NCBI RefSeq assembly: GCF_013694095.1
Contig: NZ_JACEFB010000003.1
Coordinates: 62,001 to 126,000, forward strand
Source: Thermogemmata fonticola
Lineage (GTDB): Bacteria > Planctomycetota > Planctomycetia > Gemmatales > Gemmataceae
Length of the DNA: 64,000 nt
Direction of reading: 5' to 3'
The position numbers and the translations under genes were made by a program. Below, one piece after another: positions 54,577 through 60,997 of the stretch. Each line of letters opens with the position of its first letter. Within the stretch, counting starts at the first letter, position 1. The notes beneath the pieces are model-generated. The model did not search any database and was not told the origin of the DNA. It was given only the letters and a program-made list of their open reading frames with translations.

Positions 54577-57500
54577 ATGAGTCCGTGGATCCTCTCATTG
54601 GCGTTGCTCGCTCCCGCTCAGTCCAGCGATGGGTCTGCGGGAAATAACGAGGTGGGGCACCTGCCGCGTGCGGCCGATGGCCGTCCCTTGAATCTGGACT
54701 TTGAGACTGGCGATCTGCGAGATTGGGCGGCCGAAGGAGAGGCTTTCCGGGATCAGCCGATTCGCGGAGATACGGTACGCCGCCGCCGGGGAGACATGCG
54801 CAGCCGGCATCAGGGGGAATACTGGATCGGCGGATACGAGAAGTACGGCGACAAACCCACAGGTACGCTCACCAGCGTCCCCTTCCGAGTGACCCATCGC
54901 TGGGCTAGCTTCCTAGTCGGCGGCGGACCCTGGCCAGAAACCTGTGTGGAAATCCTCTGCGGTCCGAATGTCATCCTGCGCGTATCCGGTTTGGAAGAGG
55001 AAGATATGCGGCGGGTGGTGGTGGACCTGTCCCAATATGTGGGCCAGGACATTCGCATCCGCCTGGTAGACCGGCACAGCGGCCATTGGGGGCACATCAA
55101 TTTCGACGATTTCCGCTTTCATGACCAGAAGCCGAACTTCCCCGAACGTCCAAAGCACCACCCTCTACCGCCACCGGATCAGTACAAATATGCCGGCCTG
55201 CCCCCCCAACAGGCAGCTCAGGTGATGACAGTACCGCCCGGTTTCTCCGTAACGCTCTTTGCCGGGGAACCGGATGTCCATCAACCGATCGCTTTTTGCC
55301 TGGACCATCGCGGCCGGCTGTGGGTGATCGAGGCCTATACCTATCCTCAACGCCAGCCGGAAAAGGGTCCGCTGATCCCGGTCCAGCCAGGCAAGCCAGC
55401 CGTCGGGGACAAAATCATTATCTTCGAGGATACGAATGGAGATGGCAAATACGACAAACGGACAGTTTTCCTAGAAGGGTTGAATTTGGCGTCGGGGATC
55501 GAGGTGGGATTCGGTGGAGTCTGGGTCGGTGCTGCCCCGTATCTGCTATTCATCCCGGACAAGGACGGTGACGACAAGCCCGATGGTCCGCCGCAAATCC
55601 TGCTAGATGGCTGGGGTTGGCAGGATACCCACGAAACGCTCAACAGTTTCATTTGGGGACCAGATGGCTGGCTCTACGGCTGCCACGGTGTCTTCACTCA
55701 TTCCCGCGTGGGCAAACCCGGCACCCCGGATAAAGATCGCATTCCAATCAACGCCGGCATCTGGCGCTACCATCCAACCCGCCATGTTTTCGAGGTCGTG
55801 GCCCACGGAACCAGCAATCCCTGGGGATTGGATTACAACGCTTGGGGAGATTTCTTTTGTGAAGCCTGCGTCATTCCGCACATGTGGCACATCGTCTTAG
55901 GGGGTCGCTATCACCGCCAGGCAGGGACGCACTTCAACCCTTACACTTACGACGACATTAAAACCATCGCCGTGCATCGGCACTACGTTGGTCCCACTCC
56001 TCATGGAGGAAACAACCGCTCCGATAGCGCCGGCGGCGGACATGCCCATTGCGGCCTGATGTGCTACCAGGGCGGCGCGTGGCCGAAAGAATACTGGGGC
56101 AAATTGTTCATGGGCAATCTGCACGGCCACCGGCTCAATGTGGACATAATCACCCCCAAGGGCAGCGGCTATGTTGCCAATCGTCAGCCGGACTTTCTGC
56201 TCTCCCACGATCGCTGGTTCATCCCCGTCGCCATCAAGAGCGGGCCGGATGGCAATGCCTACCTGCTCGATTGGTACGACAAGCAGATTTGCCACTTGCC
56301 GCAACCGGAGAAATGGGACCGCACGAACGGACGCATTTACAAGATCAGCTATCAGGGAACCCGCCCGGTAGTGGGTTTGGACCTGTCCCGTTGCAGCGAC
56401 CTGCAACTCGTGCAATATCAGGAACACAGCAACGACTGGTATGCCCGGATGGCTCGCCGCTTGTTGCAAGAGCGAGCCTATCAGCGAAGCCTGCAAGCGG
56501 ACCGACCCGCCTGCCCGGAAGATTGCTTGCTGGAGGAGCAAGCCTATCGGCATTTGGTCGCGCTAGCCAGCCGGCATCCTGAGCCAACCATCCGACTGCG
56601 TGCCTGGTGGACGCTGCACCAGGTCCACCCGGATGGATGCCCGCTGCTCAAGCAAGCCTTGCAGGATGCCGACCCCCACATCCGGGCATGGGCCATCCTG
56701 CTGGCTTGTGAAAACGGCCTACCCGCATGGTTGACGAGCGGCGACCTCAACGATCTGTACGGTCCCCAAGAAACCTCCCCCATCGTGCGGCGTGCTCTGG
56801 TCTCAGTGGTGCTGCGCGATCCCTCCCGATATGTGCCCGCCCTACCCCGTTTGATGCCACGTTGGCTAGCCCACGCGGAGGATGCCAGCGACCCGAACCT
56901 GCCTTACCTGTACTGGTACGCTTTGGAACCCTACGTCGCACGACAGCCGGCGGATGGCCTACGGTTGGCAGCGGAAGGAAAAATCCCCTTCGTCCAGGAA
57001 TGTGCCGCCCGCCGTGTTGGTGCCCTGGGCACTCCGGAAGCCTTACGCCTGCTCGTGCAGCATCTGGTCCAAGCACCGGGAGAGGAGCAGCGCGGGGCAT
57101 ATCTCCGCGGTTTGCAGGAAGCAGCACGGGGCAAGCGGCAACTTCCTATGCCGGAGGGGTGGCCTCAAGCCTTGGAACTGCTCTTGCGGGCGCGCGACAG
57201 CGCCGTGCGGCAACAAGCCCTGGCATTGGCTGCCACCTTCGGAGACAAATCCGCCCTCACCCTCCTGCGGAAAGTGTTGGCCGACCCACAGGCGGACGCC
57301 GGCGCACGCCTGTCCGCTCTGACGGCTTTGGTCGATGCTAGAGATGCCGAAGCCATTCCTCTGTTGCATGCGGCCGTGGCGGAACCATCTTTGCGAGCCA
57401 GTGCCATCCGGGCCTTGGCTGCCTGGGATCATCCCCAAACGCCTGCCGTCTTGCTCCTGCACTATCCCCGCTTGACTCTGGCCGAAAAGCGTGAAGTCCT

Positions 57501-58725
57501 CGCCACTCTGGCCTCCCGCCTCAGTTTCGCCAGGGAGTTGATGGCTGCCATCGCCGCACGCAAAATTCCTGCCAGCGATGTCCCAGCGGAAATCATCCGC
57601 CAGCTTCGCAGCTATAAGGACGCATCCTTAGACCGCCAAATCGCCGAGTTGTGGGGCATCGTCCGCGATTCGCCAGCCGAGCGCAAAGCGCTCATCGCAC
57701 AATGGCGTGCTCGGCTCAACGCCTCGCCGCCTGGCGATCCCATCCTGGGGCGTGCGATCTTCGCCAAAACCTGCCAGCAGTGCCACGTCCTCTACGGAGT
57801 TGGCGGACAGGTCGGACCGGAAATCACGGGGGCAAACCGCTCCAGCCTGGATTATCTCCTGGAAAACATCCTCGATCCCAGTGCGGTTATCCCCAAGGAA
57901 TACGCCGCCACGCGCATCGTCACCAGCGACGATCGCACTATCATCGGTATTATCAAGACAGAGAATAACGGTGTTCTGACGATCCAAACTGAACGCGAAC
58001 TGCTCACGCTTCCCGTGGCAGACATCGTAGAGCGCAAGCCCTCCGAGCAGTCGATGATGCCGGATGACATCCTGCGGCAACTGAGCGAATGGGAGTTCCG
58101 CTGCCTCATCGCCTATTTGCAAACGACCCAACAGGTGCCCATGCTCGCCACACCCGACAATGCCAAGGATTTCTTCAATGGCAAGGACCTGACCGGCTGG
58201 GACGGCGACCGCACCCTCTGGACGGTGGAGGAAGGGGCCATCGTGGGCCGAACAAAAACGGGCTTGAAGCGCAACAATTTCCTCGTATCGCAACTGGCTG
58301 TGGAAGACTTCAAGCTGTCCCTCAAGGTCAAACTGGTGCCCAATAAGGAGAACAGCGGTATTCAATTCCGCAGCGTCCTCCTGCCGGATGGCGAGATGCG
58401 CGGGCCGCAAGCCGACATCGGCGCTGGCTGGTGGGGTAAACTCTATGAGGAAAGCGGGCGAGGTTTACTTGCCAAGGAAGGAGGAGAAAAATACGTCAAG
58501 CCGGAGGACTGGAACGACTACGTCATCGAAGCCATCGGCCCCCGCGTTCGCATCTGGATCAACGGCCAATTGTGCACTGACTACACCGATGACAAACTCG
58601 CACGCCGGGGAGTCATCGGGCTACAAATTCACAGCGGCGGACCTATGGAAATCCGTTTCAAAGACCTCCGCCTGGAAGTCTATCCATCTCAGCCCGCCCC
58701 GGAAAAAAAGACGGAGAAAAAATAA
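54577..58725 (+). CDS. Secreted PVC-type dehydrogenase with HEAT repeats, cytochrome c site and DUF1080
   Basis: A 1382-residue multidomain protein with GGAGGG before the ATG and a signal peptide (MSPWILSLALLAPAQ). Residues about 25-190 are a beta-sandwich-like part (LNLDFETGDLRDWAAEGEAF). Residues about 222-592 are a PVC-type NHL/beta-propeller dehydrogenase (GFSVTLFAGEPDVHQPIAF, HGVFTHSRVG, HPTRHVFEVVAHGTSNP). HEAT-like helical repeats follow (about 640-1000). A cytochrome c site CQQCH is at residues 1066-1070 with GQVGPEITG. A DUF1080 sugar-hydrolase-like domain closes it (FFNGKDLTGWDGD, about 1200-1375). This family is typical of Planctomycetes and Verrucomicrobia. Presumed role: electron transfer in secreted carbohydrate oxidation. 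Confidence 0.92.
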   Translation: MSPWILSLALLAPAQSSDGSAGNNEVGHLPRAADGRPLNLDFETGDLRDWAAEGEAFRDQPIRGDTVRRRRGDMRSRHQGEYWIGGYEKYGDKPTGTLTSVPFRVTHRWASFLVGGGPWPETCVEILCGPNVILRVSGLEEEDMRRVVVDLSQYVGQDIRIRLVDRHSGHWGHINFDDFRFHDQKPNFPERPKHHPLPPPDQYKYAGLPPQQAAQVMTVPPGFSVTLFAGEPDVHQPIAFCLDHRGRLWVIEAYTYPQRQPEKGPLIPVQPGKPAVGDKIIIFEDTNGDGKYDKRTVFLEGLNLASGIEVGFGGVWVGAAPYLLFIPDKDGDDKPDGPPQILLDGWGWQDTHETLNSFIWGPDGWLYGCHGVFTHSRVGKPGTPDKDRIPINAGIWRYHPTRHVFEVVAHGTSNPWGLDYNAWGDFFCEACVIPHMWHIVLGGRYHRQAGTHFNPYTYDDIKTIAVHRHYVGPTPHGGNNRSDSAGGGHAHCGLMCYQGGAWPKEYWGKLFMGNLHGHRLNVDIITPKGSGYVANRQPDFLLSHDRWFIPVAIKSGPDGNAYLLDWYDKQICHLPQPEKWDRTNGRIYKISYQGTRPVVGLDLSRCSDLQLVQYQEHSNDWYARMARRLLQERAYQRSLQADRPACPEDCLLEEQAYRHLVALASRHPEPTIRLRAWWTLHQVHPDGCPLLKQALQDADPHIRAWAILLACENGLPAWLTSGDLNDLYGPQETSPIVRRALVSVVLRDPSRYVPALPRLMPRWLAHAEDASDPNLPYLYWYALEPYVARQPADGLRLAAEGKIPFVQECAARRVGALGTPEALRLLVQHLVQAPGEEQRGAYLRGLQEAARGKRQLPMPEGWPQALELLLRARDSAVRQQALALAATFGDKSALTLLRKVLADPQADAGARLSALTALVDARDAEAIPLLHAAVAEPSLRASAIRALAAWDHPQTPAVLLLHYPRLTLAEKREVLATLASRLSFARELMAAIAARKIPASDVPAEIIRQLRSYKDASLDRQIAELWGIVRDSPAERKALIAQWRARLNASPPGDPILGRAIFAKTCQQCHVLYGVGGQVGPEITGANRSSLDYLLENILDPSAVIPKEYAATRIVTSDDRTIIGIIKTENNGVLTIQTERELLTLPVADIVERKPSEQSMMPDDILRQLSEWEFRCLIAYLQTTQQVPMLATPDNAKDFFNGKDLTGWDGDRTLWTVEEGAIVGRTKTGLKRNNFLVSQLAVEDFKLSLKVKLVPNKENSGIQFRSVLLPDGEMRGPQADIGAGWWGKLYEESGRGLLAKEGGEKYVKPEDWNDYVIEAIGPRVRIWINGQLCTDYTDDKLARRGVIGLQIHSGGPMEIRFKDLRLEVYPSQPAPEKKTEKK

Positions 58726-58812
58726 TCGGCTACCCGCCAGGTGGTAGTGACAGCAGCCGCCGACATTGCTATGCCCCGTCCCCGCCGAATCCATCCAGCA
58801 GGAGGGCAAGGC

Positions 58813-60162
58813 ATGGGACGCTGGCTTTTGGTCCCGGCGGTAGGAACGACCATGATGGTCCTGGCCCTGGCGACGGCCCAACAGTCGCTGCCACCGCCCG
58901 CCACGTTCCCGAGACGACCGGCTGTTTCCCCTCCATTATCGGAACCGCCAGCCGCTCCCGTTCAACCGGGGAAAGTCATTGCTTCTCCAGCAACTTCATC
59001 TCCAGCAGGGCCGGGAACGGCTCCATCCCTTCGATCGGACACTGTGGCGGTGAGTAACCAACGGATGCCTTTAAAAGTGGCGGAGCTGACTTTGAAACGC
59101 TTGGTCACCGGAGCAGATTCTGCAAGCTGGCAAATCTGGGCGGGCCATCGTCTGTTCCGGGATTTCGCCGACGACGAAGAAAGCGCCCGCGCCGTGCTAA
59201 CCACCTTGCGCGATCAGCGGCCGGAGGAATGGTTCCTTATCGGTTCGCCGCACCCAATTGTCGAATACGGTCTAGTCAACGGTCAGCCGCCGCTGATGTT
59301 GGGCCGCACGGGATCAGGCGATCCGCGATCCGGCAGTTCCTTCCTGACCCACCAGCTCGATACCCACCGGCCCTTGATGAGCGGCACCGGATTGCATGCC
59401 ATCCTGCCCATCGATCTGCGAACGATCCGCCTGGAACAAATCCACGGTGTGTGGGTCCTGCGGGATGATCACAATCTGCTGATCAACTTCGCCGATCAGC
59501 AAGCAGCGGGTGAGCAGGCGCTGGCAGCCATCCGGCGGCATGGCCTGAATCGCTTGGGGATTGTGGGCAGGCGCCGTCCTGTTTTTCGCTGTCTGTTTGC
59601 CGCCACCGAGGAGGGACGAGAGGGCCTGCCGGAACCGCTGCGCCGCCAGCATCTGCAACTCCAGAGTGATGCCCTCAATCCGATCGGCTTGGCCGTACCG
59701 GGAGTGGGATACGTGGGTCTGCTCCACCGTTTTGATCCCCGCAGTTTGAGCCTGCGCAAGCAAGGCGGACAATGGCAGATCGTGACCGCCGACGATTATG
59801 TGCTTGGCCAATTCGGCCCCGCGGAAAGCCATGCGGCTGATGCCCTCCGCCTGCTCCGTGAGGGGCAATTCACCGCCATTGCCCGTTACGGTCCGGCCAC
59901 GTTGCTCTTCCGCCAGGAGCAAATCGCCCATCGCCTCCCGTTGCATACCCATGTCCGAGTTTTTGATCCGCGCAATTTACGCGTCGTCACCACGGGCCAG
60001 CGTTGTTTTGTGGCGGATCAAGGCCGCCCGGTGTGCGATTGCCGCGATTCTGCCGAAGGACAAACCATTATCGCCATCCTTCAGGCTTTCGGATGCAATT
60101 TGCTCGCCCATATCGGACCCACACCCCGTCAAGGCTTGACCTTCTTCGCCCGCCATCCATGA
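58813..60162 (+). CDS. Secreted protein with four tandem approx. 65-residue repeats
   Basis: The start at 58813 follows AGGAGG by 9 bases; the open frame from 58741 is longer but not needed. The 449-residue product has a hydrophobic N-terminus (GRWLLVPAVGTTMMVLALATA), a Pro-rich segment to about residue 75, then four tandem units at about residues 90-159, 199-262, 307-367 and 385-449. Each unit has a strand ending in W/F/C, a FxD or FGP-like turn followed by A-rich helix (e.g. INFADQQAAGEQALAAI, GQFGPAESHAADALRLL, CDCRDSAEGQTIIAIL), and an IG/RY-x-P end. Three of the four begin near (F/I)D(P/L)R. No known family is recognised. It lies 87 bases after the dehydrogenase gene, so co-transcription is plausible. 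Confidence 0.78.
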   Translation: MGRWLLVPAVGTTMMVLALATAQQSLPPPATFPRRPAVSPPLSEPPAAPVQPGKVIASPATSSPAGPGTAPSLRSDTVAVSNQRMPLKVAELTLKRLVTGADSASWQIWAGHRLFRDFADDEESARAVLTTLRDQRPEEWFLIGSPHPIVEYGLVNGQPPLMLGRTGSGDPRSGSSFLTHQLDTHRPLMSGTGLHAILPIDLRTIRLEQIHGVWVLRDDHNLLINFADQQAAGEQALAAIRRHGLNRLGIVGRRRPVFRCLFAATEEGREGLPEPLRRQHLQLQSDALNPIGLAVPGVGYVGLLHRFDPRSLSLRKQGGQWQIVTADDYVLGQFGPAESHAADALRLLREGQFTAIARYGPATLLFRQEQIAHRLPLHTHVRVFDPRNLRVVTTGQRCFVADQGRPVCDCRDSAEGQTIIAILQAFGCNLLAHIGPTPRQGLTFFARHP

Positions 60163-60207: not shown

Positions 60208-60828
60208 TCACACCCCTTCTCGGAGAAATGCCGTTGTCGAAGAGTTGCTAACACCGGCAGGGAGAACATGGCAACGCAAATCATGCCGGCGGATGAGAGC
60301 GTCCAGCTCCCCTTCAACTTGCCGCCAGCGTGGGGAGGGTATGCACAGAATGACTTCAATCTCTTCCCTGTCCGCTGAGATCGGCTCGATGTTCAGAGGC
60401 TGAGGCCTCCAATCCAGGTTCTGCAAAGTCGCGGTTGTAAAACCGGTCAATTCCAGCTCTGGCAACTGCTCCAACTCGCGGAGCACAGCCAGCAAGCGTT
60501 TGGGATCGAAGCGGCCTTGAGCCTCTGGATTATTCAGGACAAGGTTAAGGGCTTTTTCCCGTTCCGGTGTCAGGTGCACCACCGAGACGGGCACGACTTC
60601 TACGCCCAGCTCCCGCAGAATACGTAGGCGGAAGTGACCTCCCACCACATGACCGGTTGTTTCATTCCAAACCAGGGGTTCGACCAGCCCGAAGCTCTGC
60701 AGACTCCGGCGCAATCGGTGGTAAACCCGCGACGTCTCCGGCAAGACCGCCCGCGGATTGTAAAGGGCCTCCTTCAACTCTTTCAGCGGCAAATAGCGGA
60801 TTTCGAGCGGGGTCATCCTCTGAGTCAT
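60208..60828 (-). CDS. ParB-like N-terminal domain protein (orphan)
   Basis: The start at 60828 follows GAGGGAATCGCG by about 8 bases and gives 206 residues. The ParB/Srx-type domain is visible: EIRYLPLKELKEALYNPR at the N-terminus, SLQSFGLVEPLVWN, and the GHFRLRIL motif in VVGGHFRLRILRELGVEVVP (quoted short as GGHFRLRIL). There is no helix-turn-helix DNA-binding part and no parA nearby, so this is not a chromosome-partition ParB. Such stand-alone domains occur in phage or mobile contexts or as small regulators, but no mobile gene is near. Confidence 0.82.
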   Translation of the reverse strand: MTQRMTPLEIRYLPLKELKEALYNPRAVLPETSRVYHRLRRSLQSFGLVEPLVWNETTGHVVGGHFRLRILRELGVEVVPVSVVHLTPEREKALNLVLNNPEAQGRFDPKRLLAVLRELEQLPELELTGFTTATLQNLDWRPQPLNIEPISADREEIEVILCIPSPRWRQVEGELDALIRRHDLRCHVLPAGVSNSSTTAFLREGV

Positions 60829-60997
60829 CGCGATTCCCTCGAATGTAAACATATTATCATGTGTACATAAGTATGCACCATAATTCGGGACTTGTCAAGG
60901 CAAAAATGTCCGAGGGAGTTAGTTTGTGCTCCCAGAGTGCAGGGAAGGACTGATAAACTAAAGGTTAGAGAATCAGAAAGCCCAAGGGCGGGTCGTC

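Follow-up and report, generated by a model that had tools for sequence, protein, structure and literature searches.

The closest lead among described protein families for the repeat unit reported here is the YegP/DUF1508 repeat (PF07411; PDB 6q2z, HVO_2922), which is likewise made of small units, in tandem or as dimers, with a strands-helix-strand order. A second likeness is found in the C-terminal accessory domains of secreted peptidases (e.g., PPC, PF04151). PPC is an all-beta add-on at the C terminus of exported peptidases, and the module described below is similarly added C-terminally to exported peptidases with unrelated catalytic domains, but its sequence and fold class are distinct from those of PPC, and it gave no Pfam match. 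The envelope proteins of the Planctomycetota, the phylum of the organism studied, are poorly known.

The window, i.e., the whole stretch of DNA that was analyzed, comprises 64,000 nucleotides of the Thermogemmata fonticola contig NZ_JACEFB010000003.1 (positions 62,001 to 126,000). It contains a gene that runs, in the ORF translation, from an ATG at 58813 to a stop at 60162 and encodes a protein of 449 aa. The features of the gene and of its upstream neighbor are as follows.

54577..58725 (+), PVC-type heme-binding protein, upstream neighbor (Pfam and NCBIfam)
58800..58805 (+), AGGAGG, likely ribosome-binding site of the ATG at 58813, read from the sequence seven bases upstream of it
58813..60162 (+), gene of the four-unit secreted (predicted) protein (ORF and translation; homologues aligned full-length)
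58813..58878 (+), predicted export signal MGRWLLVPAVGTTMMVLALATA (hydrophobic stretch with an A-x-A end; comparable starts in relatives)
58879..59067 (+), Pro/Ala/Ser-rich spacer (composition, 24% Pro)
59068..59286 (+), U1, the A-type unit that opens pair 1 (hhalign, 78 to U3 and 69 to canonical A; AF2)
59287..59403 (+), linker within pair 1, variable and of low model confidence (pLDDT, 53-71; shorter in many relatives)
59404..59613 (+), U2, the B-type unit that closes pair 1 (hhalign, 110 to canonical B and 104 to canonical A)
59614..59724 (+), inter-pair linker that contains one predicted helix at ~59632-59670 (AF2 model residues 195-207)
59725..59934 (+), U3, the A-type unit that opens pair 2 (unit profiles by hhalign; AF2)
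59956..60159 (+), U4, the B-type unit that closes pair 2 (hhalign, 72 to U2; AF2)

The preliminary description had called the protein secreted, and the prediction is retained here on the grounds of the hydrophobic start, its A-x-A end, and the comparable starts in relatives. The predicted signal has no lipobox Cys; export signals were called with a hydrophobicity rule and inspection by eye. Aligned relatives show a signal-like start followed by a Pro-rich stretch, which differs among them in length and sequence. No catalytic domain was recognized in the four-unit protein with Pfam and NCBIfam. One homologue (G009:C4:608791-610105) is read as two overlapping frames, compared with a single frame in close relatives, which indicates either a frameshift or a sequencing error.

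Unit homology, pairing, and predicted fold

The protein consists of four homologous units of about 65 residues each (U1, residues 86-158; U2, 198-267; U3, 305-374; U4, 382-449). When the bare sequences were compared, only U1 and U2 were clearly alike (Z, 6.4), followed by U2-U3 (3.3), U2-U4 (2.9), U3-U4 (2.2), and U1-U3 (1.0), with no signal for U1-U4. Profiles built for each unit over 29 relatives and compared by hhalign gave scores of 54 for U1-U2, 78 for U1-U3, 40 for U1-U4, 44 for U2-U3, 72 for U2-U4, and 52 for U3-U4. All six unit pairs score between 40 and 78, compared with maxima of 24 in 40 column shuffles per unit pair and of 16 with reversed profiles, which supports the homology of all four units. 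Invariant residues across the 29 relatives include positions in every unit. The AlphaFold model of the four-unit protein, built with the 29 relatives, has a mean pLDDT of 90.4 and a pTM of 0.84, and DSSP assigns the same order of three strands, a helix, and two strands (beta3-alpha-beta2) to each of the four units. The four tandem units first seen by eye are therefore borne out by profile scores far above the shuffled and reversed controls and by an element order that is repeated four times in the model. The claim that repeats 2 and 3 are most alike did not hold, as the profiles rank U1-U3 and U2-U4 first, and the bare sequence ranks U1-U2 first.

The family profiles place U1 closest to U3 and U2 closest to U4, and the protein is therefore read as two A-B pairs. 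As judged from these sequence comparisons, the evolutionary module is the two-unit A-B pair and not the single unit. When the family profile (A1) was compared with the canonical pair, whose distribution is described below, hhalign aligned U1, the linker, and U2 over 146 columns with a probability of 99.8% (E, 5e-28 for the pair comparison). Each of the four units matches canonical units with hhalign scores of 54 to 110, the highest being that of U2, which is the unit nearest to the canonical module. The A and B labels rest mainly on unit order and the linker, because U1 and U3 favor canonical A over canonical B only slightly, and U2 and U4 score about equally against the two. All complete proteins read have an even number of units (2, 4, or 6), so that the pair is the form to choose for expression and testing. 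The feature is real and was correctly seen. It is reinterpreted here as the product of duplicating a two-unit module that belongs to a broader, unnamed family: the count of four units stands, but the module is the pair, which other phyla carry on unrelated proteins. The U1-U3/U2-U4 pattern disfavors a simple solenoid that grew stepwise by duplication of one unit.

Canonical pairs share a conserved loop after strand 4, CFVGRPxPxMxY, which is typical of the module without defining it. In U1 and U2, IG-P-P or VG-P-P is what remains of the CFVGRP motif, and in U3 and U4 the motif is eroded or lost, so that the window protein, which keeps the typical loop at most in part, represents a divergent branch.

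A canonical pair from another phylum was modeled by AlphaFold with a pLDDT of 95.9, and its element order is that of the four-unit protein. Both models display the beta3-alpha-beta order in tandem units known from YegP/DUF1508, with one additional strand in the DSSP assignment. Searches of the PDB and BFVD with these two confident models found no match at E<=0.001. The best Foldseek E values were 0.012 (four-unit model, to a clamp) and 0.29 (canonical pair, to ribosomal L6), and the best VIA-align Z scores were 3.0 and 4.7, respectively; these weak rows are compatible with a shared fold. The DNA sliding clamp (DnaN) is also built of repeated alpha/beta units and accounts for several of the top Foldseek rows (E of 0.012 and above), but a TM-score of 0.12 and an rmsd of ~19 make it an unconvincing fold match, and the window protein is predicted to be exported. 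The structural rows for PH/PTB, WD40, ribosomal L6, and the clamp were set aside as weak.

Searches with the window protein, its family, and the canonical pairs found no entry naming the unit in Pfam, NCBIfam, PHROGs, or PDB sequences, which agrees with the earlier statement that no family with this unit is known; a literature search on the motifs of the module found no paper. The unit is not filed under DUF1508. A DUF1508 profile made from related genomes reached an hhalign score of 27 over 31 columns against canonical B and of 22 over ~30 columns against canonical A, compared with at most 16 in 60 column shuffles, and the probability was 35 to 71% over an alignment of 31 columns only. This alignment is limited to the strand-strand-helix core, and DUF1508 differs in having neither the extra last strand nor the GRP loop. 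In the second structural search, 6q2z was also among the rows, with a Z of 3.4 over 51 residues and an rmsd of 5.5. PF07411 itself produced no match at E<=1 for the window protein, at E<=10 for the canonical pairs, or in the window's genome. DUF2188, for which too few sequences were found, is a possible second lead on fold grounds. Other candidates were set aside: YjbR, UPF0425_C, and Mur_ligase_C gave scattered weak matches with no agreement between members, and matches to designed TIM barrels were taken as composition matches.

Distribution and domain context of the canonical pair

Of the 95 genomes of the window's family, 49 encode the four-unit protein, as do 51 of the 102 genomes of its order; the two extra genomes at the order level belong to a sister family and gave partial matches. 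The Planctomycetota therefore have a conserved protein, predicted to be exported, in about half of the genomes of this order. A scan of genome contigs with the window protein by short peptide patterns found no match, because the relatives are too diverged for such patterns.

A unit profile (A2) built solely from relatives within the window's bacterial family picked up canonical units at E values of 1e-17 to 5e-16 in two further genomes of Planctomycetota, each with two units in tandem; one partial match over 32 positions (G189) from this search was left out of the relatives. Canonical pairs occur in Acidobacteriota, Nitrospirae, Cyanobacteriota-type genomes, Alphaproteobacteria, and other Planctomycetota. 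In the two genomes of other Planctomycetota, a papain-family peptidase of Candidatus Uabimicrobium (L041) bears the pair at its C terminus (papain fusion, L041/L045), and a protein of 1588 residues (L040) has it near the N terminus. Searching with the canonical pair as seed recovered proteins of Rhodovulum plasmids that carry two PASTA domains and end in the pair, and genome contigs scanned with the pair yielded further cases in Holophagaceae, Bryobacterales, Bradyrhizobium, Nitrospirae, Obscuribacterales, and Pararhodobacter. The pair is joined to a subtilase in Nitrospirae (L054) and to HAD type II enzymes in Bryobacterales and Bradyrhizobium (L051 and L053), and proteins of Obscuribacterales and Pararhodobacter have a signal-like start plus the canonical pair. 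Stand-alone canonical forms contain two units (L052 and L055) or six units in three pairs (L047 and L049), compared with four in the window, so that homologues differing in repeat number were indeed found. A genome of the cyanobacterial phylum adds one more canonical-pair match.

Outside the order, canonical pairs are sparse: none was found in 348 other genomes of one phylum or in 198 genomes of a second (the centre genome apart), and 1 of 193 genomes of a third has the pair. This patchy distribution suggests horizontal spread. No relative was found in viral contigs and phage records. The module recurs in distant phyla, where it follows papain, subtilisin, HAD, and PASTA domains, and has no entry in the libraries searched; one profile would close this annotation gap.

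Several of these proteins have further features. The Rhodovulum proteins, from plasmids of different strains (L043, 2140-3480; L044, 2143-3474), combine their two PASTA domains and C-terminal canonical pair with one predicted membrane segment, and they lie in a gene cluster of contractile tail/baseplate type with a tail sheath, gp25, baseplate J, VgrG, and PAAR. The two HAD type II (haloacid dehalogenase) enzymes (L051, 5290-6447; L053, 5353-6528) have the canonical pair at the C terminus and no obvious export signal. Exported proteins of Holophagaceae (L046, 4954-6447; L050, 4249-5742) end in the canonical pair. The region upstream of it contains GHG and LLNSCN stretches, in which a likeness to clan CD peptidases (caspase/gingipain-like) is seen by eye; Pfam gave no match for L046.

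Proposed role, alternatives, and neighboring genes

The best explanation of these observations, which we put forward tentatively, is that of an exported Pro-rich stalk with two A-B modules, the pair being a mobile accessory module and the protein serving at the envelope or surface in multivalent binding or as a scaffold. The protein would be exported, and its flexible Pro-rich stalk would carry the two modules. The predicted fold of each unit runs through three strands and a helix to two further strands, and the paired units would together form one compact, rigid body. The pair may have moved as an accessory module that is attached C-terminally to exported peptidases and other proteins or exported alone in one or three copies. 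In the window's branch, the pair would have been duplicated, and the protein would work without a catalytic domain, in multivalent binding or as a scaffold at the cell envelope or on the cell surface. The homology and pairing of the units, the relatives, and the strand order of the model are shown by the comparisons above; we infer export, envelope location, binding, and a binding loop as parts of this explanation. The binding or scaffold role is suggested by the attachment of canonical pairs to unrelated exported domains and by the lack of a recognized catalytic domain in the window protein.

The candidate contact site in canonical pairs is the CFVGRPxPxMxY loop, the best conserved exposed candidate. 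If the loop matters, pair 1, in which it is partly kept, would be the active one; the reduced motif of U1 and U2 and the eroded motif of U3 and U4 also suggest that these units may have lost or changed the putative binding site. The two HAD fusions indicate that an extracellular place is no rule for the module, which weakens a strictly extracellular role, and the sparse distribution outside the order counts against the binding-module view. It is possible, if rather doubtful, that the A-B pair is a previously unnamed extracellular binding module of several phyla, perhaps with a new fold, which was duplicated in this Planctomycetota order into a stand-alone four-unit envelope protein.

A purely structural envelope protein, in which the four units act as a spacer or matrix and have no ligand at all, would fit two observations: some units have lost the canonical Cys and GRP motif, and conservation is high among core residues and not concentrated in a single surface motif. 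We consider this unlikely, as every unit has invariant residues across the 29 relatives and U2 is still near the canonical form.

The adjacent dehydrogenase gene raises another alternative. The upstream neighbor encodes 1382 residues with DUF7133, HEAT, a cytochrome c-like CxxCH domain, and a 3-keto-disaccharide hydrolase domain. A dedicated partner of this PVC-type dehydrogenase, e.g., one acting in sugar oxidation as a chaperone, a docking platform, or a scaffold for electron transfer, had been hinted at by the gap of 87 bases that separates the two genes, which lie on the same strand of the window. The adjacency does recur in a second genus, with gaps of 88 bases (G090), 176 bases (G091), and ~2 kb (G088), and a chance neighborhood of 5 kb in a genome of several Mb is unlikely. 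However, the arrangement is not general. The genes are close (<=~2.1 kb) in 4 of the 33 genomes that have both, from two genera (the window, G090, G091, and G088), where dehydrogenase orthologues were accepted at E below 1e-60, and a dehydrogenase orthologue lay within ~8 kb in 1 of the 20 regions first examined. The other genome of this genus has its dehydrogenase orthologue (76% identical) on another contig; the opposite flank of the repeat gene is syntenic there. The two genes are far apart in single-contig genomes that have both (G010, G011, G052, G072, and G087), and near-complete genomes with the repeat protein and no dehydrogenase orthologue include G022, G023, G024, and G074. Canonical pairs elsewhere have no such dehydrogenase neighbor in the loci read. 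A dedicated partnership therefore appears improbable; the case for it is weak, and a loose link between the two proteins is possible. In one genome (G092), the repeat gene and the dehydrogenase orthologue are ~16 kb apart on one contig. More than half of the genomes of the family contain a close orthologue of the protein encoded at 54577-58725.

The fusions of canonical pairs to C1A (papain) and S8 (subtilisin) peptidases might suggest that the repeat protein inhibits exported peptidases or regulates them in the manner of a pro-domain. This is very improbable in view of the other fusions to HAD and PASTA, the stand-alone forms, and the C-terminal position of the pair in the peptidase fusions, as pro-domains are usually N-terminal.

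A transporter-like gene of ~470-520 residues, absent from the window, lies downstream of the repeat gene and converges on it at a distance of ~1.4-2.9 kb in nine genomes of one genus (L058, L059, L061-L066, and L068). The window has a gene of ParB-like nuclease type (60208-60852, minus strand) that converges on the repeat gene, and this order is kept in the second genome of the genus (L057).
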